From the NCBI RefSeq assembly GCF_001787335.1, contig NZ_CP014674.1:1506501-1570500 (forward strand): a DNA stretch of 64,000 nucleotides, read 5' to 3'. Below the pieces are notes generated by a model, which had not been told where the DNA came from, ran no database searches, and saw only the letters and a program-made list of their open reading frames with translations. The stretch is from Kozakia baliensis. Lineage in GTDB: Bacteria > Pseudomonadota > Alphaproteobacteria > Acetobacterales > Acetobacteraceae. This document shows positions 1,979-29,972 of the stretch, in pieces; the stretch's first letter is position 1, and every line of letters starts with the position of its first letter. Made by a program: the position numbers and the translations under genes.

Positions 1979-3279
1979 GCGTCGAGCGCCTGGAATGTCT
2001 TGGGCATGAAAAGAGGATGCGGGGCATTGGCCCTTGCGATGAGATCGCGAACCCGCGTTGGATCCTGATAGAGCTTCCAGGCCAGAGCGATCGCTGGCAT
2101 CGAGGCGTTGTAGGAAAACGTCTCGATATGGGCCAGCTTCGCCCCGCGCTCGCTCAAATCTTGCACCACGGCCGTCCGGACATCGCGCAGAAAGCTAAAG
2201 GCGTCACCATCGCCAGCATCCGCAGCGACGAGAATTTCAGCATCGAGGAGAGAAACCGCATTCGTCAGGGTCGCTTGCGCCGCTTCGGCGCTATCGGGCT
2301 GATAACTGGAAATGGCCTCCGCCAATCCGATCAAGGCCGAACGCCGCAGCATGGAGGCGAGGGCGGTTTGCGCAGAGGCGATTGCGCCACCGATCGGCGC
2401 GCTGGATGCCGTAATGGTCGGCTGGAACTGCGATAGATTGGACAAAAGGCGGATTTGATCGAGCGGGCTGATCGCGGCCGTCCGGATGGCAACGATCGTC
2501 GATCGCGCAGCTGCCGTACAGCTTTCCGGATTGGTCACGATATTGCCAGCCGCCGTGTTGAGATCGGCGACCGACGCCTCGATCGCGGAACGGGAGGAGA
2601 CTACCGCTGCCCGCTGACTGGCGACCGTAGCACTTGTCGCGGCTGGCACGGCGAGGCCTCCGCCGTCATACCGGCCATTATAGCCGGACAACCCCGACGT
2701 CTCCCGCGCGATCGCAGCCGGGTCGCGACCGAGGACCGTTGCACGATCGGACCATGCCGTTGCAACGGATTGGGAGCCAAGTGCAACGGCAGCCGCCGAC
2801 GAACCACCGCCGGAGACGGCGGCCGCCACGACACGACCGACCAGAAGGACAGCAGCGGCAGCCGCCACCAAAATCGCGTTTTGCGTGTCGATCAGCAGGT
2901 TGGGATAGCGCCGATCCCCACCTTGCATGAAGACCATCTCGAATTCGACGACGCGCTGCGCATCATAGCGATCACGCATCACGACCGGTTCGAGAAGACT
3001 GCACTGGACGGGGCCGAGCGTCGGATGGACGAGAAGGCCAGGGCCTTTCAGTTCGCAAGCGGCCTGCATGACGGCGCGCTGAAGATAGACGTCATCCCCG
3101 ACCAGACGGCCGGTAAAGGAAATGACGCGCGAAGCACGCCCCATGTCTTCCACCCACGGCGTGGAGCGGAATGGATATTCATGAACGGCATTTTTGCGGC
3201 CGACGCGAAGCGAACTACCGAGGACGTGGAAAGGAACGCCACGCCACACGGCCGGGATCATGAGGGTAATAACGGACAT
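1975..3279 (-). CDS. Mu gpN-like tail/DNA circularisation N-terminal domain protein
   Basis: The 434-residue protein begins with the region characteristic of the DNA circularisation protein N-terminal family (Mu gpN): AVWRGVPFHVLGSSLRVGRK, then PWVEDMGRASRVISFTGRLVGDD and GPGLLVHPTLGPVQCSLLEP within the first 120 residues. In Mu-like phages gpN is a tail protein located between the tape measure and the hub, and it probably acts as the distal tail or upper hub component. The middle (about residues 130-250) is alanine-rich and looks low-complexity. It follows the tape-measure gene after 2 bases. Confidence 0.8.
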   Translation of the reverse strand: MSVITLMIPAVWRGVPFHVLGSSLRVGRKNAVHEYPFRSTPWVEDMGRASRVISFTGRLVGDDVYLQRAVMQAACELKGPGLLVHPTLGPVQCSLLEPVVMRDRYDAQRVVEFEMVFMQGGDRRYPNLLIDTQNAILVAAAAAVLLVGRVVAAAVSGGGSSAAAVALGSQSVATAWSDRATVLGRDPAAIARETSGLSGYNGRYDGGGLAVPAATSATVASQRAAVVSSRSAIEASVADLNTAAGNIVTNPESCTAAARSTIVAIRTAAISPLDQIRLLSNLSQFQPTITASSAPIGGAIASAQTALASMLRRSALIGLAEAISSYQPDSAEAAQATLTNAVSLLDAEILVAADAGDGDAFSFLRDVRTAVVQDLSERGAKLAHIETFSYNASMPAIALAWKLYQDPTRVRDLIARANAPHPLFMPKTFQALDA

Positions 3280-3281
3280 GG

Positions 3282-5159
3282 TCAGTATCCCGACGAATAA
3301 TCAGGCATAGCGTGTGAGACTTTCGGATTGACCGGCGTGCCATTGAGCGATGCGCCACGAACACGCACATGGGAATTTCCACCGTTGCCCTGATGGACCT
3401 CGATTTCCAATTTCATCTGATTGGCGCGGTTGGCGGTCTGGGCGTCAATCGAGCGGATGTATTCTTTCGTTTCCCACGGCAAACCGCTCGCATCGCCGGT
3501 TGCCGCGAATTTCAAGACGCCATTATTTCCTGGACCTGCATTATAAGCAGCTGCGGCCGCATCGCGATTTCCCTTGAAGCGATCGAGCATCTGGCGTGCG
3601 TAGCGTGCACCACCTTCTAAATTCGCTTGCCAAGTGTAGCCAGGCGCATTGATACCGGATGGCAATCCAAGCCCTGCAGCCGTGCCAGGCATTAATTGAG
3701 CTGGCCCGAAAGCGCCGGCTTTCGAGACATTGTTATAGCCGCCTTGCTCTGTCTGAAGCAGAGAAAGAAACCAATTCGGGTCGAGACCATTACGTGCAGC
3801 GGCTGTGCGCCCCGCTGCCTCGATATCGGCAGGAAGCGGCTTTCCTTTCATCAAGGTATCGCCAGTGCCGAGGGAATGCGGTTTGAAGGCCTCATAAGTG
3901 CCATACAACAAGGCAGCCAGAAGGCCGCCTCGCAACCCAAGCTTCAGCAAACCCTTGCCGCCGCTTTTCAGCGCGCCACTCGCACCACCTGCATCGACGG
4001 CCGCATCTGCCCACGCGCCGTATTTAGCGGCAGACATCGCCACTAAAGCCTTCGTGGCCTTACCTGCCATGAAAATCACTTTGGCAATTTGCAAAAGAAC
4101 AGGTGCGAAAAGCTTCGCGATCATACCTTCGGCGACAAGAGTTGCCACCGATCCCCAGCCGCCCAATGCCTGCGCGACATCATTTACGCCAGTATAGATG
4201 TCGGAAATGTCAGTGCCGACCTGCTTCCAATTCACTGATTTCACCCAGTCGGCAAACGTCTTCACGGCCTGGCCGACCTTGGCGGCGATCACTTCACGGT
4301 TTTTGGAGATCAAATCTGTGAACCATCCCAGCAATCCCTGAAGGCTGGGCGCGACTTGCTGAGCGATCGAGTAGGAGAGGCCGACAGACGCAAGTTTCAA
4401 TTGGGTTAGGGAAAGGCGCAGCGCATTCGCTTTATCGGCGCCGTCCCGATTTGTAAGACCAAACCGGCTCGCATCCTTTTCATATTGCGCCATCCCCTTC
4501 GCGCCGAGGCGCAGGAAGGGAAGAAGGTCTTCACCCGCCGATCCGAGTAGCTGCGTGGCAACACGCGCCTGAAGCGTAGGATCTTTGATGGCTGCAATCT
4601 TGTCGGCCAATTCCGGGAGCACTTGCGTGACGTCGCGGATGCCCCCCTTCATCGTGCCGATATTAATCTGGAACTGTCGGAAATATTGCAGCGACTGCGC
4701 ATCACGACCACCCAGCGCGTTCACCATGTTATCGCGCAAGGATCGAAGCCCGGAGGTCATGCTACCCGCTGATGCGCCGGCCTCTTCCGCCGCTCCCTGA
4801 AGGTCCTGGAGCTTTTGCGGCATGATGCCGATACGCTGAGCATCGAAGCCGAGCTTTGATCCAAATTGTGCCCAAGCCGTGGTCATCTTGTAGATGCCGG
4901 CGATACTGGCCACGCTGGTCAGCGCACCTAGCGGCTCGACGATTTTCACGAGAGAGCTGGCAACGCTTAATCCAGCAGATGCCCAGTTCCGGAACGCGCC
5001 CGCCACGCGGTTGATGCCGGTCGCGTCCAGGAAGCGACCGGCAGAACCACGAAAGCGCCGGAGCGGCGCGTTCATGGCGTTGATCCGTTTTGTGATGTTG
5101 TCCATCACCCGGCTGGCCCGATCGGTCGCCGAAATGGTGATGGTAAATCCACTAGCCAT
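3282..5159 (-). CDS. Phage tail tape measure protein with lytic transglycosylase domain
   Basis: The 625-residue product has a long helical region with hydrophobic stretches (about 1-430), as expected for a tape measure that sets tail length and fills the tail tube. Near residues 440-560 it carries an SLT-type lytic transglycosylase domain. The visible motifs are LSLLQTEQGG (candidate catalytic Glu), AGAFGPAQLMPGTAAGLGLP and AAAAYNAGPG. A muralytic domain in a tape measure is thought to help DNA pass the cell wall during ejection. Its ATG overlaps the stop of the frameshifted chaperone extension. At 625 residues it implies a fairly short tail. Confidence 0.88.
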   Translation of the reverse strand: MASGFTITISATDRASRVMDNITKRINAMNAPLRRFRGSAGRFLDATGINRVAGAFRNWASAGLSVASSLVKIVEPLGALTSVASIAGIYKMTTAWAQFGSKLGFDAQRIGIMPQKLQDLQGAAEEAGASAGSMTSGLRSLRDNMVNALGGRDAQSLQYFRQFQINIGTMKGGIRDVTQVLPELADKIAAIKDPTLQARVATQLLGSAGEDLLPFLRLGAKGMAQYEKDASRFGLTNRDGADKANALRLSLTQLKLASVGLSYSIAQQVAPSLQGLLGWFTDLISKNREVIAAKVGQAVKTFADWVKSVNWKQVGTDISDIYTGVNDVAQALGGWGSVATLVAEGMIAKLFAPVLLQIAKVIFMAGKATKALVAMSAAKYGAWADAAVDAGGASGALKSGGKGLLKLGLRGGLLAALLYGTYEAFKPHSLGTGDTLMKGKPLPADIEAAGRTAAARNGLDPNWFLSLLQTEQGGYNNVSKAGAFGPAQLMPGTAAGLGLPSGINAPGYTWQANLEGGARYARQMLDRFKGNRDAAAAAYNAGPGNNGVLKFAATGDASGLPWETKEYIRSIDAQTANRANQMKLEIEVHQGNGGNSHVRVRGASLNGTPVNPKVSHAMPDYSSGY

Positions 5160-16128: not shown

Positions 16129-16677
16129 TCAGCTTTTGACCCCCCCTACCTCTGGCGCGGACAGCGCGGGGAGGGGAGGGTTTCCCTCCATCGCGGCGTC
16201 GAGATCAAGACGATGACGCGGCACGCCAGCATGGATCATGTTCTGTTTCGTGCGCGAGAGCGCCGATCGAGCACGCTTCAATTCGGCATCGGCCTGGGCG
16301 AGGCGCAACTCAGCCTCTGCTTTCTCGGCGACCCTACGCTGACGCGCGGCCTGCGCCTCAAGAACGGCGACATGTTTGTCTTCGACTGCATGCACAGCCT
16401 TGGCAATGAACTCTTCAGCCTTCGCGGCATCACGCGGATCCATGTCTTTATTCATCAGGTTCCTCACAGCGAGATCAGGACGAAGACGTTCAGGCGTAGT
16501 GTTGAGCAGTTCCGCGACCTTCGGAAGATGCCGCTCTGGCACACGCTTCCATTGACTAACGGCAGGAGAGGAAACACCGCATGCCGCAGCGATTTCGCTT
16601 CCATCGCCCCACTTCAAGATGAAGGGCATGGAACCAGGACGCCGCCAAAGGGCGCGATGTCCACGCTGCGCGGTCAT
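16129..16677 (-). CDS. HTH protein with YdaS/Cro-like domain and coiled-coil tail
   Basis: The 182-residue product has an N-terminal helix-turn-helix (about residues 18-65; GSEIAAACGVSSPAVSQWKR then LPKVAELLNTTPERLRPDLA) close to YdaS-type Cro-like domains. A long alanine/charged helix follows (about 85-155; KHVAVLEAQAARQRRVAEKA). The start at 16677 overlaps the HNH stop as ATGA. In this place it could be a late-gene regulator or a DNA-binding packaging accessory. No exact family is assigned. Confidence 0.68.
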   Translation of the reverse strand: MTAQRGHRALWRRPGSMPFILKWGDGSEIAAACGVSSPAVSQWKRVPERHLPKVAELLNTTPERLRPDLAVRNLMNKDMDPRDAAKAEEFIAKAVHAVEDKHVAVLEAQAARQRRVAEKAEAELRLAQADAELKRARSALSRTKQNMIHAGVPRHRLDLDAAMEGNPPLPALSAPEVGGVKS

Positions 16678-16982
16678 TTGTAGCGACGCGGCCCTTCTTT
16701 GGCCGTCAGGCGCGAATGGCATTCCTTCGTCAGGCCCTGCCAGTTCGATGGGTTCCAGAAGAGATCATAGTCGCCGCGATGGGCTTTGATATGATGAACC
16801 TCGGTCGCCGGACGCTGGCATGCAGCATCATCGCACTGACAGACAGGATTTTCCGCCAGATAAGCCGCACGCGCTTTCTGCCAGCGGCGACCGTAGCCAC
16901 GAGAAGCAGCAGAACCGCGCGCCTTATCACTTGTCGGCATCAAAACGCGATGCGGCGAGAAGGTAGGGATTTTACCGTTCAC
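16674..16982 (-). CDS. Phage HNH endonuclease
   Basis: The 102-residue protein (GTG start) has the small HNH nuclease layout: SRGYGRRWQKARAAYLAENP, a CQCDDAAC zinc pair, VHHIKAHRGDYDLFWNPSN and LTKECHSRLTAKEG. HNH nucleases beside terminase genes are needed for packaging in several HK97-like phages. The GTG lies inside the first GTTCACA repeat of the adjacent array. An alternative ATG at 16940 would give 88 residues and keep the whole nuclease domain; neither has a convincing ribosome binding site. Confidence 0.82.
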   Translation of the reverse strand: MNGKIPTFSPHRVLMPTSDKARGSAASRGYGRRWQKARAAYLAENPVCQCDDAACQRPATEVHHIKAHRGDYDLFWNPSNWQGLTKECHSRLTAKEGPRRYK

Positions 16983-17235
16983 AATGAGGCACTCGCAAAA
17001 ATGGCGGAAAACTGCCGTTCACAAGCGTTCACAGCTTTTACTACAATATAATCTAATCTTTTCAATAAGTTATATAGGGCTGTGAACTTGTGAACGCTGT
17101 GAACGGTTTTTTGGTGTAAAGAAGCAAAACCCATGACGAGACGCTCTATAGGCGTTTTCCCGTTCACAGCGTTCACAACGTTACACGTCTGATATTGCAG
17201 CATTTTTTGTTCACAGCCCGTTCACAATGTTCACA
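16977..17235. repeat. Iteron-like array of 11 GTTCACA repeats (candidate phage replication origin)
   Basis: The heptamer GTTCACA or its complement TGTGAAC occurs eleven times. Plus-orientation copies start at 16977, 17017, 17027, 17162, 17171, 17209, 17220 and 17229; complement copies start at 17081, 17089 and 17098. Neighbours inside a cluster are 8-11 bases apart, about one helical turn. A very AT-rich stretch (about 17034-17079, rich in TATA and AATC) separates the first plus cluster from the complement cluster, like a DNA unwinding element. The array lies directly downstream of the primase and helicase-like genes. It may be an initiator-bound origin; a dense repressor-binding region is the main alternative. 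Confidence 0.72.
17034..17080. other. AT-rich segment inside the repeat array (possible unwinding element)
   Basis: This 47-base block is composed almost entirely of A and T in its centre (ACAATATAATCTAATC, TTCAATAAGTTATATAG). It is flanked by oppositely oriented GTTCACA clusters. Iteron-controlled origins usually place such an easily melted region beside the initiator sites. The role is inferred from composition and placement. Confidence 0.5.
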
Positions 17236-17259: not shown

Positions 17260-19107
17260 TTAGACACTTTCAATGTCTCCAAACCCTAATTCTTCACCAG
17301 AAACCCATATGCACCTTGCGGGCTTCATTGCCCCGACACGCACGTTGCGTTTAGGACAGCGAGCAGACTCTAATCGCCTGATCTCGTATTCCCATTTCTG
17401 CCCTTCAAATGGTGTTCCTGTAAAGAGACCACGTAACTGTGCATTCGCAGGGCTGAACCAAACTCCAGCACCGGTAGCTTCGCGCGGAATTTCGCGCCCA
17501 CGGATATCGACAGTGTCCGAGGCGCGGATAACGCGTATGCCGTATTGACCAAGAACCTCCATCGCGACATTGCGCACAAGAACATCTTCGCCGACCTCAT
17601 TCTGATCTTTCGTCAGAACACGTTCGATTAAAGCGGCGACTGACTTTCTCTCGGTCGATCGCTGCACCTGGATCAGCTGAGACATGAGATGATTTGTCAC
17701 CTGCATCGAGGCGCTCTCGGCCGCGACCTCATCAGTGTCACGAACGAATTCCGTAAGCGCACCGACACCGACAAGCCCGTCGCGTTCATTCGGAATGCCG
17801 TCACGGGTCAGAATCCACCATCCGGCCATGAGCGCACCAAGCTGATCCATCTCGCGCGGCTGACATTTGGTTTCGAGCAACGCCGTTCGAAAAACCTTAA
17901 GCGCAGCGCGATAGCGTTCCCATCCGGCAATGGCGCGGCCCCACATCAGCGGCCCATGCTCACGCGCCCACTCTTTCAATTCGTTATGTTCGGCAGAGAA
18001 ATCCTCGCCCTCATTCGCTGCTTTCAGATCCACGATCGTAAAGCGGCCCTTATGCTGCGCCTGCATATCAGGAGGTGAGATCGACGCCATGATAATGGAA
18101 CCGGCGACTTCGATCTTACGAGCTTTGCCATCCTGGCCGCCGCGCGAACCTTTCGTGCCGTCGCCACTCGCGGCAGAAAGAACAAGATCTAGGAGGGCAC
18201 GGGCACCACGCTGATCTTCTCGATCGCCAGCCTCATCAATAAATGAGGGCATGGCACGCCCGTCGAGCGATTGCTCCAGTCCGGCCTTAGACGTGTCATT
18301 CGTATAGAAGTGAACAGGGCACGCGGCAGCGAACACACGAAGCAGGGATGATTTGCCAGAGCCGGCAGGACCAATGAAGAAACCGGCCGGGCGCCAAGGA
18401 ATCGCCGCGCCATAATAAGCGCAACCAAGAAGGCCGAGCACGGCGATTTCACCGCCAGCCTTCCGGAAATTCCAGAATGCTTTGATCTTCTCCAAGAACT
18501 TCGTCCCGATCGAAGCATCGGCAGGCTCGCCTGGACGTGGCGAAGGAGGAGCAGCCGCCCAGATCTGATTGCCTGTACGCGTGCCGGCCGGTTCGTAATG
18601 ATCGCCGAGAAAGACCACGTCGCCGCAATGCACGATCGGCATGCCGTTCTTTTCCGGCCAGACGCCAGGCCGCCGGATCATGAGGTGATCACCGAACAAT
18701 CCCTCATTACGGCAAGTGCTAATCAGCCACGCCGATACTGCATTCTTGCGGAAATCGACGACGCGCTCCTCTTTCGCCGGCTGACCATCCGCACCGGTCA
18801 CATCGACCATCTTCCGCAGCGGAAATCGGCCCCGCAACCATGCGCCCTCATCCATGAACAGACTCATGAGATCGTCACGGCTGCCGAGCGCGCGCGCCGC
18901 CAGGACGCGAACCTGCCCAACGGCATCAAGAAAATAGAACTTGCCGTCCAGATGCCCAAGCGGGCGCACTGGGCAATGCGCATCGTCGTATTGTGCTTCC
19001 GGCGGACCACCGGAACCGCCGCGCTTACCACCCTCGATCACATGGAATTGGCGATCGGCGTTCTCGATCGCGCCCCGGATATCCGAGAGGGTTTCAGTTG
19101 AGGGCAT
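17260..19107 (-). CDS. Phage helicase-like NTPase (replication)
   Basis: The 615-residue protein starts at MPSTETLSDIRGAIE, overlapping the primase gene by 14 bases; the frame is open further upstream but only as the primase shadow. The central part contains FFIGPAGSGKSSLLRVFAAA (Walker A, near residue 280) and AMPSFIDEAGDREDQRGA (Walker B), followed by an IIMASISPPD sensor-like strand. This is the layout of phage DNA helicases that work with a Toprim primase (SF3/D5-like or DUF927-like). The exact superfamily is uncertain. With the primase and the adjacent repeat array it forms a probable replication module. Confidence 0.72.
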   Translation of the reverse strand: MPSTETLSDIRGAIENADRQFHVIEGGKRGGSGGPPEAQYDDAHCPVRPLGHLDGKFYFLDAVGQVRVLAARALGSRDDLMSLFMDEGAWLRGRFPLRKMVDVTGADGQPAKEERVVDFRKNAVSAWLISTCRNEGLFGDHLMIRRPGVWPEKNGMPIVHCGDVVFLGDHYEPAGTRTGNQIWAAAPPSPRPGEPADASIGTKFLEKIKAFWNFRKAGGEIAVLGLLGCAYYGAAIPWRPAGFFIGPAGSGKSSLLRVFAAACPVHFYTNDTSKAGLEQSLDGRAMPSFIDEAGDREDQRGARALLDLVLSAASGDGTKGSRGGQDGKARKIEVAGSIIMASISPPDMQAQHKGRFTIVDLKAANEGEDFSAEHNELKEWAREHGPLMWGRAIAGWERYRAALKVFRTALLETKCQPREMDQLGALMAGWWILTRDGIPNERDGLVGVGALTEFVRDTDEVAAESASMQVTNHLMSQLIQVQRSTERKSVAALIERVLTKDQNEVGEDVLVRNVAMEVLGQYGIRVIRASDTVDIRGREIPREATGAGVWFSPANAQLRGLFTGTPFEGQKWEYEIRRLESARCPKRNVRVGAMKPARCIWVSGEELGFGDIESV

Positions 19108-20131
19108 CGTTGAAATCCTTACCTTTCGGCGAGCGTGCGGTGCGAACCTCGCGACCGGCCGCCAGATGGGTCTCGATCGCCCGGCGAAGACCACGCTTCG
19201 CTTCGGGCTTTTCGTCTTTGTCGGCCAGGAGCAGCACACGCCGGACTTGCTCCGGGAGCTGCACGCTCGCCATGTTGCCGAGACTGGCCGCAGCCAGAAT
19301 TCGCAATTCGGGGCAGGCGAGGGCGACGGAGAGACAGGTCTCAATCCCTTCGCCAATCACCACCATTTCGTCGGCAGGCGCATCTTTCAGCCCCTTGCCG
19401 GATGAACCTTTACGCAGACGGATGGAACCACCGCCGAAGCGACCGCGAATTTTCTTCGCGTTCCGCAAGGGCGCTTTGCGCCAAACGCCTTGATCGTCTT
19501 TCGCCAACCAGGTCTGATGCGTCGCAATATGCGCGCCATCCAGATCGCAGATCGCCGCAAGCATCGCAGGAAGCTTGGAATTCGTCTCGCGGCAATAATG
19601 CTCCGGCGCAAAGCGGATCGCGCGCGTGGCGTGGCCCAGCATGCGCAGATCGATCCCGCGCGCCGTAAGATAAGCCTCCACCGGGGTACCACCGATATCG
19701 GCCTGAGCGCCGAGCCACATGCCACGCGCGCGGCGTCGGCCATCTTCTTCGCTTTCACCGCTCGAAGCTTGGCTTTCCTTCGCGATGATTTGAGCGCGAC
19801 GCTCTTGCACAGCGCCCAGATCGCCAAGGCCAAGCCACCGATGTGCCCAACGATAGGCGGCCTTCATATCGTTCCCGGTTAGACATGCCGCTACCAGATC
19901 GAGAGCATCTCCACCTTCTCCGGTGCTGAAATCGGACCAGACGCCTACCTTCGCGCCACTGAGACGGAAAGCGAGTGAGCCACCATTTTCGCCAGCTTCG
20001 CCAGCGACAGAACCGCAGCGCCATTCCGGACCCTGCTTAACGCCGCCAGGCAACAATTCGCGCGCCAACTGCTCGGCTTGTGCCGCCAACATCTTCGAGA
20101 TTTCGGAGGCCTGGACGCGATCGGCGCTCAT
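19094..20131 (-). CDS. Phage DNA primase with Toprim domain
   Basis: The 345-residue product has an N-terminal zinc-ribbon-replacing region typical of DUF7146-like primases (EWRCGSVAGEAGENGGSLAF, KVGVWSDFSTGEGGDALDLV). The C-terminal Toprim domain shows MVVIGEGIETCLSVALACPE (acidic motif near residue 260) and VLLLADKDEKPEAKRGLRRA (DxD-like motif). It would make RNA primers for phage replication. The start at 20131 is chosen because CGGAG lies 8 bases ahead and because TGATG couples it to the gene before. Confidence 0.82.
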   Translation of the reverse strand: MSADRVQASEISKMLAAQAEQLARELLPGGVKQGPEWRCGSVAGEAGENGGSLAFRLSGAKVGVWSDFSTGEGGDALDLVAACLTGNDMKAAYRWAHRWLGLGDLGAVQERRAQIIAKESQASSGESEEDGRRRARGMWLGAQADIGGTPVEAYLTARGIDLRMLGHATRAIRFAPEHYCRETNSKLPAMLAAICDLDGAHIATHQTWLAKDDQGVWRKAPLRNAKKIRGRFGGGSIRLRKGSSGKGLKDAPADEMVVIGEGIETCLSVALACPELRILAAASLGNMASVQLPEQVRRVLLLADKDEKPEAKRGLRRAIETHLAAGREVRTARSPKGKDFNDALN

Positions 20132-20364
20132 CACAGCATCTCCGTCCATCGGGAGACGCGCTTCTCAACACGCTTCAGCCGAGTTAACCGGCGCTGAAGC
20201 GTCCAGCCTTCATAGCGAAGCCAAACCTGGACGATACGGATCCGCACGATGCGCGCAGCAACCCGCATATCGCCGCAATAGTAATACTCGAACACGATAC
20301 CACTCGCGACGAACACGCCCGCAACGAGTGGCACCGCAATCAGACCGTAGGCGAGTTGCCTCAT
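20131..20364 (-). CDS. Small membrane protein of the phage replication operon
   Basis: This 77-residue protein begins MRQLAYGLIAVPLVAGVFVA, a clear hydrophobic segment (about residues 5-30), and ends in a basic tail (LRYEGWTLQRRLTRLKRVEK). It overlaps the upstream gene as ATGA and the primase as TGATG, so it is translated as part of the operon. The function is unknown. It may anchor replication factors or act on the host envelope. Confidence 0.6.
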   Translation of the reverse strand: MRQLAYGLIAVPLVAGVFVASGIVFEYYYCGDMRVAARIVRIRIVQVWLRYEGWTLQRRLTRLKRVEKRVSRWTEML

Positions 20365-23239: not shown

Positions 23240-23572
23240 ATGGACCTCGACATGCTAGACTCGAATTGCGTCCAGCGCGCGGAGTTTTCGCGCCTTCTGG
23301 ACGGTCTTCCGCCTCATATTCTTCACCAGGCCGCCCGCGTTCAGGACCGCCTCAACCTCATCCGCAGCCGAGAAAGCATCGCGGTGCGCCTCGGCAATTC
23401 CATGATGCGCGACATTTGGCGCAAGAGCGCGGACGAAGCCCAACAGGAACTGGAAGAGCTGCTCTTGAAGGGCCGCGTTTCCACCTGCTCCAGCACGGTA
23501 GAGGGCGCAATCGTCTTCTATCCTGACGGCGGCCGCGGCTACTTCATTCCGAAGGCATCGCGCCCATGCTGA
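23240..23572 (+). CDS. Unknown prophage protein upstream of ParB-like gene
   Basis: The 110-residue protein has a helical N-terminal two thirds (LPPHILHQAARVQDRLNLIR, SADEAQQELEELLLKGRV) and a short beta end (GAIVFYPDGGRGYFIP). Its stop overlaps the ParB-like start by 7 bases, which suggests they work together. No family is recognised. An ATG at 23252 is an alternative start; neither has a strong ribosome binding site. Confidence 0.6.
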   Translation: MDLDMLDSNCVQRAEFSRLLDGLPPHILHQAARVQDRLNLIRSRESIAVRLGNSMMRDIWRKSADEAQQELEELLLKGRVSTCSSTVEGAIVFYPDGGRGYFIPKASRPC

Positions 23573-25209
23573 TCGCGATCGACGATATCCACGAGAACGG
23601 CAACATGCGCCGCACGCTTCCAGAAAAGCAAGCGGATGAGGCGTTGAGCCGCAGCATTGCCGCTATCGGCGTGCTGGAGCCGGTTCTCGTGCGCCCCAAT
23701 CCCGAGGGCGGCTACCTATTAATTGCAGGTTACCGCAGGGTGAAGGTGGCGCGGAGTCTAGGCCTGAAAGAACTTCCGGCCGAGGTGAAACTGTTTACCG
23801 ATGTCGAGGCCGAAGCGGCCCAGGCCGCTGAGAACATGGTTCGGGCGGCCGTCGATCCGGTGGACCAGTGGCGGCATATCTGTCGTCTGATCGACGACGG
23901 TTATTCAAAGGAGAGCGCCGGAGCGGCGCTCGGGCTGTCCGACCGAAGGGTCGGCCAGCTGTCTAAGTTAGGCCGGCTTGCGCCGGCGGTGCTGGACTGC
24001 CTCATCGGTAAATCGCTACCGCCCTGGAAGACGCTCGGCGAGATCGCTCAAGCACCGCACGATCGTCAGATCGAGGCGCTCAATCGTCATCGGCATGACT
24101 CTGGCACAAATTGGAATTCCATTGCGGCCGAGTGCATTCAACAACGCATCCCACGCGACTACGCCATTTTCGACGTCGAAGCATCGGGTATCGAGTTCGA
24201 AGAAGATATGTTCGCGGAGCCGGGCTCTCCGGAGCAATTCACCACGACGCAGCTGCTCGACTTCATGCGTGCCCAGCGCGACGAAGTGGAAGAGCGGATC
24301 CGCAACGGTAAAGAACCAGCCATTCTCGCCGAGTATAATCCGATCAGCACACTGCCGAAGATGCCGGCAGGGTGGACGTTTGCGGATTATGGCGAAGCTC
24401 GGACGCTGACGAAGCGCAGCCGCCAGAAGCGCCTCTATTCGATCATCCCAGCCAATGAATACCGGGACGGCGGGAAGGTTATCAGCATTCTCATCAAGTC
24501 GATGTCGGCCGGGAAGGAGCCAGACGTCGATCCAGATAGCGACGAAGCTGATCCATATTTCCAAGAGGATGCGGTCCCGGAAGTGGCGGATGAACCGGAC
24601 GTGGTGGATGGCGAACAGATCACGAAGGCTGGGCACGATATGCTGGCCTCGATCCGCGAAAATGCGCTGAAGGATCGGCTCCGGTTCATTTATCCGGACG
24701 CCTATGATTCGCAGATCATGGCCGCTTTGATCGTCCAGCTCGTTGGCCATGACCAACGCTGTCGAGATCTGGTCGCAGCCTTGATTGCGCCAGACGGAAA
24801 CGGATTACCGCTCCAAATTGAGGAAGTCGCCGCGATCGGCGCCGAAGCGCTCGCCCGCACCGTGGAGATTTGGCCCAAGCACAATCAGATCGCTCATAAC
24901 CGTGAGAGCATGACAACGCGCGCGGAATGGATCGGCGCGCTTGTCGAAGCAGATCTCTCCATGCCCCGGCTCGATACCCGCGAAATACTCGCGCATGTCG
25001 GCGGTGAGGCCCTGAAGAAGATCGCAACCGACTTCCTACCGCCTTCCACGCCCAAAAAATCAGTCCCGAAGAAGGTCGGAGATCTGCGCCAGTTTCTTGT
25101 CGGCAAGGCCGAGGCCTGGCGTCCGGTGCATTTCGGCGCGCCTGGACCGAACTGTGCGGCCTGGCATCCAGAGAACGAGGCGGACGAGCAGGACGAGGAG
25201 GCGGCTTGA
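23566..25209 (+). CDS. ParB/Srx-domain DNA-binding protein of prophage
   Basis: The 547-residue protein opens with a ParB N-terminal domain: MLIAIDDIHENGNMRRTLPE, then GVLEPVLVRPNPEGGYLLIA, GYRRVKVARSLGLKE (the GxRR box near residue 55) and AENMVRAAVDPVDQWRHICR (the ENxxR box). An HTH follows (SAGAALGLSDRRVGQLSKLG, near residue 115). The last 300 residues are acidic and unusual for chromosomal ParB (PDVDPDSDEADPYFQEDAVP). No ParA gene is adjacent. It may regulate transcription or bind phage DNA rather than segregate it; CTPase function is likely by family but not shown. Confidence 0.78.
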   Translation: MLIAIDDIHENGNMRRTLPEKQADEALSRSIAAIGVLEPVLVRPNPEGGYLLIAGYRRVKVARSLGLKELPAEVKLFTDVEAEAAQAAENMVRAAVDPVDQWRHICRLIDDGYSKESAGAALGLSDRRVGQLSKLGRLAPAVLDCLIGKSLPPWKTLGEIAQAPHDRQIEALNRHRHDSGTNWNSIAAECIQQRIPRDYAIFDVEASGIEFEEDMFAEPGSPEQFTTTQLLDFMRAQRDEVEERIRNGKEPAILAEYNPISTLPKMPAGWTFADYGEARTLTKRSRQKRLYSIIPANEYRDGGKVISILIKSMSAGKEPDVDPDSDEADPYFQEDAVPEVADEPDVVDGEQITKAGHDMLASIRENALKDRLRFIYPDAYDSQIMAALIVQLVGHDQRCRDLVAALIAPDGNGLPLQIEEVAAIGAEALARTVEIWPKHNQIAHNRESMTTRAEWIGALVEADLSMPRLDTREILAHVGGEALKKIATDFLPPSTPKKSVPKKVGDLRQFLVGKAEAWRPVHFGAPGPNCAAWHPENEADEQDEEAA

Positions 25210-28757: not shown

Positions 28758-29972
28758 TCATAACTTCGAAATGCACCACTTTCCCCAGTCATCCATCAAC
28801 GGCCGCCTTAGATCGAGCAGATCGCTTCGAGCATAGGCGGCCTCGACCTTGTTATCGACTGTATGCGCAAGAGCTGCTTCAGCTACCTCCCGCGCGTAAG
28901 GCGTTGCTTCAGACGCCCAATCCCTAAAGCTCGATCGGAAGCCGTGCGGCACAATCGGTTCGCCAGTTAGGCCATCCTTCCAAATCGGCTCATGTCCGGA
29001 TTTCTTCCCGTTCATCCGACGCACCGTTTCCAGCATGGCCATCAAGGATTGCGGCTTGCCACCCGGAGCGGCGAACACATGATGATCGAGAACAATATTA
29101 TCCGGCCGCACCGCCGTAAGCACCTGGAGCGCTTCGTCCGAAAGCGGCACACGATGCCATCGCCTTGTCTTCATGCGCTCCGGCGGAATCGTCCAGATCG
29201 CTTTCTTTAAGTCGACCTCGCTCCATTTCATGCCGCGCGCTTCGCCTGATCGGCAGGCAGCCAAAATCGTGAATTCTAGCGATCGAGCAGAATATCCCTC
29301 TCGCTTGCGAAGGTCCGCAAAGAAGGCCGGGATTTGCTGCCAGGGTAGGGACGGGTGATGCACAGTGGCACGAACTCGGCTTGGCGGCGGAAGACGGGTC
29401 GCAAGATGGCCTTTCCAACGCGCCGGATTATCGCTTGTTCGCCAGCCACGCGCCCGTGCGCCGTCCATAATCGCCTCGATACGTCCGCGCACGCGCGATC
29501 CGGTCTCCGGCGTCTTCGCCCAGATCGGGCGCAGGATATCGAGCAGATGGTCCGTGGTAATGTCTTCGACGTCGATATCGCCGATGACCGGATAGACATG
29601 AGCCTCCAACGTGCTTGTCCACTGCGCAGCGTGCTTTGGATTGCTCCACCCGATCGCGCGATCGGCAATTAGATCGGCCGCCGCTTTGCGGAAGCTATGA
29701 TCTCCATCCTCAACGTGGACGTTTTTCGCTGCAAGCGGGTCTATTCCCTCGCGGATCTGCGCACGGGCTTTTTCCGCCGAGATCCGTGCGTCGGATAATC
29801 GCACGTCCGGAAACGCCCCCAGGCCGATATCGCGCCGCCGACCGCTCATCGCATATCGGAAGACCCAACCCTTATGCCCGCTCGATCGAATGACAAGATA
29901 AAGACCGGCGCCGTCACTATAACGGCCCGGCTTCACAAGGTTCTTAATTCCAATAGCTGTAAGCTTTGCCAT
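28758..29972 (-). CDS. int: P4-type tyrosine integrase of prophage
   Basis: The 404-residue integrase has the DUF4102 arm-binding domain (NLVKPGRYSDGAGLYLVIRS, RYAMSGRRRDIGLGAFPDVR) at residues 1-90, a core-binding domain, and a catalytic domain. Catalytic residues are visible: Arg in LAACRSGEARGMKWSEVDL (near 240), His and Arg in VPHGFRSSFRDWASE (near 350), a late His in ALAHTVDNKVEAAY and the Tyr of AAYARSDLL (near 380). It would catalyse site-specific insertion and, with the excisionase-like protein, excision. It faces the rightward operon, and the host genes begin 360 bases beyond its start. Confidence 0.92.
   Translation of the reverse strand: MAKLTAIGIKNLVKPGRYSDGAGLYLVIRSSGHKGWVFRYAMSGRRRDIGLGAFPDVRLSDARISAEKARAQIREGIDPLAAKNVHVEDGDHSFRKAAADLIADRAIGWSNPKHAAQWTSTLEAHVYPVIGDIDVEDITTDHLLDILRPIWAKTPETGSRVRGRIEAIMDGARARGWRTSDNPARWKGHLATRLPPPSRVRATVHHPSLPWQQIPAFFADLRKREGYSARSLEFTILAACRSGEARGMKWSEVDLKKAIWTIPPERMKTRRWHRVPLSDEALQVLTAVRPDNIVLDHHVFAAPGGKPQSLMAMLETVRRMNGKKSGHEPIWKDGLTGEPIVPHGFRSSFRDWASEATPYAREVAEAALAHTVDNKVEAAYARSDLLDLRRPLMDDWGKWCISKL

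Follow-up and report, generated by a model that had tools for sequence, protein, structure and literature searches.

Here we describe a dense array of short repeats in a Kozakia baliensis prophage that is very likely a replication origin, recognised by the C-terminal tail of the helicase encoded beside it—a reading that draws on sequence comparison and on analogy with characterised replication modules. The array lies in the window, the whole stretch of 64,000 nucleotides that was analysed. The observations behind the reading are the array itself, its conserved place and layout among relatives, the changing repeat word, and one clean case in which helicase tail and array differ together.

The heptamer GTTCACA occurs in 11 exact copies within 259 bp (16977-17235), as the original prediction had it, with about 0.02 expected (Poisson P for at least 11 copies ~4e-27). 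Both strands of the window hold 17 copies in total, 11 of which fall inside this interval, compared with 4.89 +/- 2.13 expected from 100 dinucleotide-preserving shuffles, none of which reached 17. This is the densest 7-mer cluster of the window—the best unrelated one has four copies in 300 bp. Across the organism's own 3.5-Mb genome the tandem-pair pattern GTTCACAN{1,6}GTTCACA gave six matches, all six inside the array, and the reversed-pattern control gave one. The finer description also holds: start-to-start spacing within clusters is 8-11 bp, the sites lie in both orientations (17081, 17089, and 17098 are opposite to the remaining eight), and a 47-base core at 17034-17080 is 74% AT, versus 43% for the window.

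On the minus strand, in the sense of the helicase gene, the word reads TGTGAAC and the sites fall into blocks. Block A (17209-17235) has three sites, at 17209-17215, 17220-17226, and 17229-17235; block B (17162-17177) has two exact sites, at 17162-17168 and 17171-17177, with three in many relatives; block C (17081-17104) holds the three sites on the plus strand; and block D (17017-17033) has two minus-strand sites, starting at 17017 and 17027. The AT-rich core separates blocks C and D and is the proposed unwinding element. An outlying eleventh site, also on the minus strand, lies at 16977-16983. The makeup is thus 3+2+3+2 exact sites plus one outlier, giving 11 rather than 12 exact sites, which counts against a 12-site reading.

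An MCM-like helicase gene and an HNH gene border the array, which starts 24 nt past the helicase stop codon. The array had been placed beside the primase and helicase genes, and the adjacency stands; however, the array comes after, not before, the replication genes, both of which are on the minus strand, with the helicase gene ending at 17260. Directly after the array is the HNH endonuclease gene (16674-16982, minus strand), whose GTG start codon is overlapped by the outlying site; initiator binding there could influence expression of the packaging operon. The host element is a tailed prophage, with terminase large subunit, portal, major head, tail sheath, and tape measure genes in the same gene block, a terminase small subunit gene, and an integrase at 28758-29972.

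The helicase (17260-19107, minus strand; 615 aa, start codon chosen by conservation) is an AAA+ protein of phrog_21086 (E 8e-214), a family with no assigned function, and is our proposed origin-reading, self-loading initiator. Against Pfam it matches weak AAA models only, with no DUF927 or D5 profile match at E 0.1, and its sequence profile searched against the PDB places P-loop ATPases on top. An AlphaFold2 model (27 alignment rows; pLDDT 82.8) has as its top PDB match, by Foldseek and by a second structural comparison, the SCCmec protein Cch (5dgk; Z 17.2, rmsd 5.1, 340 residues aligned at ~12% identity); the next matches are mostly MCM proteins. The gene upstream, the usual partner, encodes a Toprim primase (DUF7146 and Toprim_3; 19094-20149, minus strand).

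Modelled alone, helicase residues 455-615 reach a pLDDT of 89.8. Foldseek gave no PDB match for this C-terminal model at E 0.001, and the matches of the second structural comparison went no higher than Z 4.6, one of them being PriRep1 with dsDNA (7pds; Z 2.3). The last 33 codons (residues 583-615; 17263-17361, minus strand) are central to the natural swap described below. The residues that differ in that swap come after the folded part's last predicted helix and fall in short strands, possibly the two arms of a hairpin; the order of the predicted elements alone is what would suggest reading the C-terminal domain as a wHTH with a wing. Separate pieces of the helicase also occur in relatives. 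Locus L131 carries an orphan copy of the C-terminal domain (3003-3359, a 118-aa frame) with no array nearby, either a remnant or an origin-binding protein. Three genomes of one genus (g60) encode small proteins resembling only the N-terminal domain (profile columns ~31-116), on the opposite strand a few kb from the helicase (L132:2814-3230, L133:3664-4005, and L134:1966-2370); these could be initiator regulators or decoys.

Related helicases were used to sample 121 loci from viral contigs, genome contigs, and whole genomes, so the helicase is present in every locus by construction. A profile match was found in 118, and 76 were kept after dropping loci with identical downstream DNA, open frames, or <150 bp downstream; close relatives remain numerous among the 76, and a stricter filter leaves 45. 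Named relatives in the genome collection come from Asaia, Swaminathania, Saccharibacter, Acetobacter, and Gluconobacter, alongside MAGs. By de novo 6-mer counting, 63/76 loci have at least seven copies of one 6-mer after the helicase stop, nearly all clusters lying within ~400 bp of it; mononucleotide shuffles (20 per locus) reached maxima of 3-7 copies. Removing L030, with its GC-rich, chance-like word further away, leaves 62 arrays. The other 14 loci comprise five with 5-6 copies of an iteron-like word (L020, L033, L035, L061, and L113) and nine, L030 included, with no array-like cluster after the helicase: seven distant relatives with at least a partial C-terminal region, one locus without that region (L070), and one fragment (L019). 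The original prediction had named as its counter-case related prophages that keep the replication genes and lack the array; the survey came out the opposite way, with at least seven copies in 62/76 relatives, of other words.

Four blocks are seen in 50 of the 62 arrays. Exactly 12 sites are counted in 28 of them, within a range of 9-15, when one mismatch is allowed and lone mismatched sites are excluded. Between blocks C and D the median AT content is 79% (n=50), and this gap is richer in AT than the B-C gap in 47/50; with the word oriented so that block C is reverse, block D is mainly forward in most arrays, and spacing within blocks is mostly 8-12 bp. The repeat itself varies: the 45 loci carry 26 different words at positions 2-7, registered by hand, with examples including TGTGAAC (window), TGTAACC, GGTAGCC, TGTCTCA, GGGAACC, and CGGGACA. 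A relative whose helicase is 70% identical uses TGTTACG. Across relatives, then, the place and layout of the array are conserved, but the repeat sequence is not. At one contig end (L026:1702-1908) there are direct repeats with a CRISPR-like look beside a fragmentary helicase match.

Arrays are also found in named phages. Related helicases occur in 20 phage records, nine of which were examined. In Synechococcus phage MinM1, TGTGAG is repeated 12 times immediately 3' of the helicase gene, the gut phage clone MT835534 has 10 copies of AGAACC 185-442 bp past the gene, and S-H1 and KLER1-1 have seven and six copies of one 6-mer, respectively. Acinetobacter phage Acjo_20 carries 11 TGTAAC-type repeats before, not after, its primase-helicase gene (L128:322-631)—its array may have changed place. 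No repeat cluster was seen in four of the nine. The array DNA itself had no match in phage records, as expected if the word changes.

The clean case comes from G721, a genome of the same family as the window's genome, which has two prophage regions with related helicases (L041 and L067), each region also carrying relatives of the window's TerL, HNH, primase, and ParB. The two helicases differ at 17/581 profile columns, 14 of which lie in the last 33 residues, with two extra differences between profile columns near the N-terminus; the two tails read RRNAKAMRVGQTPPAKCIW and RRSKTNVRIGQTPPGKYLW. Along the DNA, the pair is 90-100% identical up to a point ~100 bp short of the stop codon, then 44-70% over the next ~350 bp, and 88-100% thereafter; the differing island of ~350-380 bp corresponds to the last 33 helicase codons plus the array. 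The word changes with it: L041 has GTAAC at 12/12 sites, and L067 has GTGAC at 11/12 and GTAAC at 1/12. Over 23 kb the median identity of the pair is 100% (234 windows of 100 columns). Identity drops under 85% in only 13 of these windows: three mark the left edge of the compared block (-3.8 to -3.6 kb), four belong to the tail-array island, and six lie 2.4-7.1 kb downstream, one of them at 64%. From the early segment to the helicase tail, a stretch that includes the primase, no window is this low. Tail and array thus differ jointly amid nearly identical DNA.

Other pairs are less sharp. L067 compared with three more relatives using the GTAAC word gives a like contrast with less definition. In a second case, L097 and L102 are 88% identical over the helicase body and 35% in a tail patch, with words GGGAACC and GGTAACA; this pair localises the change less sharply because its divergent DNA begins ~500 bp before the stop. 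Further swap pairs were sought in two genera: the first gave no new helicase and the second one match (G847, L139).

Family-wide statistics speak less specifically about which residues read the word. Mutual information across the family did not single out the helicase tail, many body columns ranking equally high, and neither did windowed (partial) regression, in which tail windows ranked 6th to 163rd of 190. Alignment column 555, corresponding to residue N588 in the window, is associated with iteron base 4 (Fisher p = 0.0019 over 28 independent pairs, among which the more diverged ones are also those that differ in base); however, it is not the best column. That is column 577, also in the tail, followed by 71 and 420, outside it. 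Asparagine accompanies G4 in 9/13 loci and proline accompanies T4 in 6/11, a relation that is at best partial. It is mainly the one clean swap, the location of the array, and the behaviour reported for SaPI Rep and Cch2 that suggest the helicase tail as the reader.

The general layout of an iteron origin, with phased repeats near an AT-rich element and beside the gene of the proposed initiator—here the helicase, in its putative role—is found in the window. The closest published parallels are the rep-ori modules of SaPIs and PICIs. In the excerpts of the sources cited, primase and initiator-helicase genes are followed directly by an iteron origin in which two iteron sets flank an AT-rich region; in SaPIs the origin comes immediately 3' of rep, and its reader is the C-terminal domain of Rep (Ubeda 2007, cited in PMC7581432; PMC6092414). 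Here, too, the iterons lie directly 3' of the helicase gene (24 nt in the window; at least seven copies in 62/76 relatives) and blocks C and D flank the 74% AT element, with blocks A and B additional, and the joint difference of tail and array favours a C-terminal reader of the same kind. The differences are the primase, of Toprim type here whereas AEP primases are described for SaPIbov1 and SaPI5 in those excerpts, and the mostly four blocks in place of the two sets described there. Initiators of SaPI/PICI-type modules are AAA+ helicases of the DUF927/Cch or D5 type; the window helicase has Cch as its best structural match (340 residues aligned, ~12% identity) but no DUF927 or D5 profile match in Pfam. 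Cch is described in the available part of PMC7581432 as related to SaPIbov1 Rep; according to the same passages, the C-terminal domain of Cch2 binds direct repeats downstream of its gene, and the Cch2 origin has three 5-nt iterons. By analogy, we propose that the module would work in the manner of the SaPI/PICI rep-ori modules, although its layout is distinct and it lies in tailed prophages. It is not itself a PICI: those satellites are defined as being without virion genes of their own, whereas this prophage has its own terminase, portal, head, and tail genes.

Phage P4 alpha, with its sites ori1 and crr, is a primase-helicase that reads short iterons through its C-terminal domain, a comparable arrangement; the C-terminal model of the window helicase had no PDB match at E 0.001. 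Covariation and modular exchange have a parallel in the PLE satellites. In the sections of PMC8263062 consulted, the DNA-binding domain of the initiator RepA and the origin covary and are exchanged as modules, and a phage targets the origin with a nuclease whose specificity matches it; PLE differs, as described there, in having a RepA_N initiator, three ~30-bp iterons, and the lifestyle of a satellite of a lytic phage. TcpK of plasmid pCW3 is a wHTH protein whose beta-wing binds 9-nt tandem repeats (PMC6137059, in part). Its structure (5vfy) resembles the C-terminal model weakly (Z 4.6, rmsd 3.7, 91 aligned), within the range of common arrangements, and it acts, in that account, at a transfer origin, not a replication origin.

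Who else might read the array can be judged from its neighbours. In 41 helicase loci longer than 6 kb (32 distinct by downstream DNA), tblastn at E 1e-4—a search that small diverged proteins may escape—found relatives of the primase in 39, HNH in 11, TerS in 11, the HTH protein at 16129 in five, a 122-aa protein in four, and an 82-aa protein in two. The suggestion that the initiator is the HTH protein or one of the small operon proteins fits poorly with these few occurrences, and in G721 the word changes with the helicase tail, the relatives of the HTH and 122-aa proteins lying outside the differing island. The notion of a phage iteron origin itself is supported by the conserved position, block layout, and AT-rich gap among relatives, and by the features it has in common with the SaPI/PICI origins in the literature. 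A different reader of the same origin—the primase, a small upstream protein, or a host factor, with the helicase being recruited—is improbable in our judgement. The primase occurs at these loci almost as regularly as the helicase, and the family-wide statistics do not pinpoint the tail; however, in G721 the word changes while the DNA from the early segment to the tail, with the primase in it, stays at least 85% identical, the small proteins go undetected in most loci, and a host factor would need to read both G721 words in one cell.

Much the same improbability, only slightly milder, attaches to an operator array through which an HTH repressor (the HTH protein at 16129 or an immunity repressor/Cro pair) would control the HNH-terminase operon, which had been offered as the alternative to an origin. 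The site at 16977 overlaps the HNH start codon, so a regulatory side role is possible, and the region holds two weak promoter-like matches versus 0.3 expected. The early HTH genes of G721 (L140 and L143; ~3.6-5 kb before the helicase stop) also differ along with the array—as expected for different immunity—and, together with the six downstream windows below 85%, this makes the pair on its own compatible with an HTH reader as well. Against an operator, however, the DNA that differs adjoins the helicase tail without a break, whereas the HTH genes are >3.5 kb away. A relative of the HTH protein is seen in 5/41 loci and one of HNH, not a constant neighbour, in 11/41: the would-be regulator and the gene it would control vary from locus to locus, but the array keeps to the helicase. 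Operators, to our knowledge, are not usually laid out as four phased blocks with an AT-rich gap in their midst, which also counts against this explanation. Very improbable is a partition (centromere) site. The window does encode a ParB_N protein 6 kb off (23566-25209; E 2.5e-13; 547 aa), divergent from the replication operon and 51.5% identical to relatives in both G721 phage regions; yet in most loci the array keeps its place at the 3' end of the helicase gene, and the block containing the ParB gene is 96% identical between the G721 prophages while the words differ, a comparison that covers the window and G721, the flanks of other loci being too short.

If the array is an origin read by the helicase tail, replication might proceed as follows. 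The helicase encoded just before the array would bind, through its C-terminal domain, about twelve 7-bp sites in four phased blocks. It would assemble on these sites, probably as a pair of hexamers; the AT-rich element that separates blocks C and D would melt, and the helicase would load itself and work with the neighbouring Toprim primase. The choice of word would be set by the last ~33 residues. Lying side by side, tail and array could move between phages as one cassette, and related prophages in one cell could then replicate independently.

The boldest form of this proposal goes further: that tailed phages have a swappable replication-specificity cassette, in which the last ~33 codons of a self-loading helicase and a 12-site, four-block origin evolve and move as a unit and near-identical prophages in one cell own private origins; that the tail reads the variable bases through a beta-wing-like hairpin, with asparagine 588 pairing with G and proline with T at base 4; and that twelve sites specify a double hexamer. 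We put it forward tentatively, as a whole falling a little short of an even chance. No paper on such arrays for the phrog_21086 helicase family was found in the literature searched, most subscription journals lying beyond that search. The family, previously with no assigned function, would gain a testable role, and the 26 origin words with their neighbouring helicases offer a natural series for working out how a self-loading replicative helicase recognises DNA. Prophages and at least one named phage would share an origin organisation that has been described, in the parts of the sources cited, as confined to PICIs. Private origins of this kind may also be one reason that closely related prophages can share one cell.
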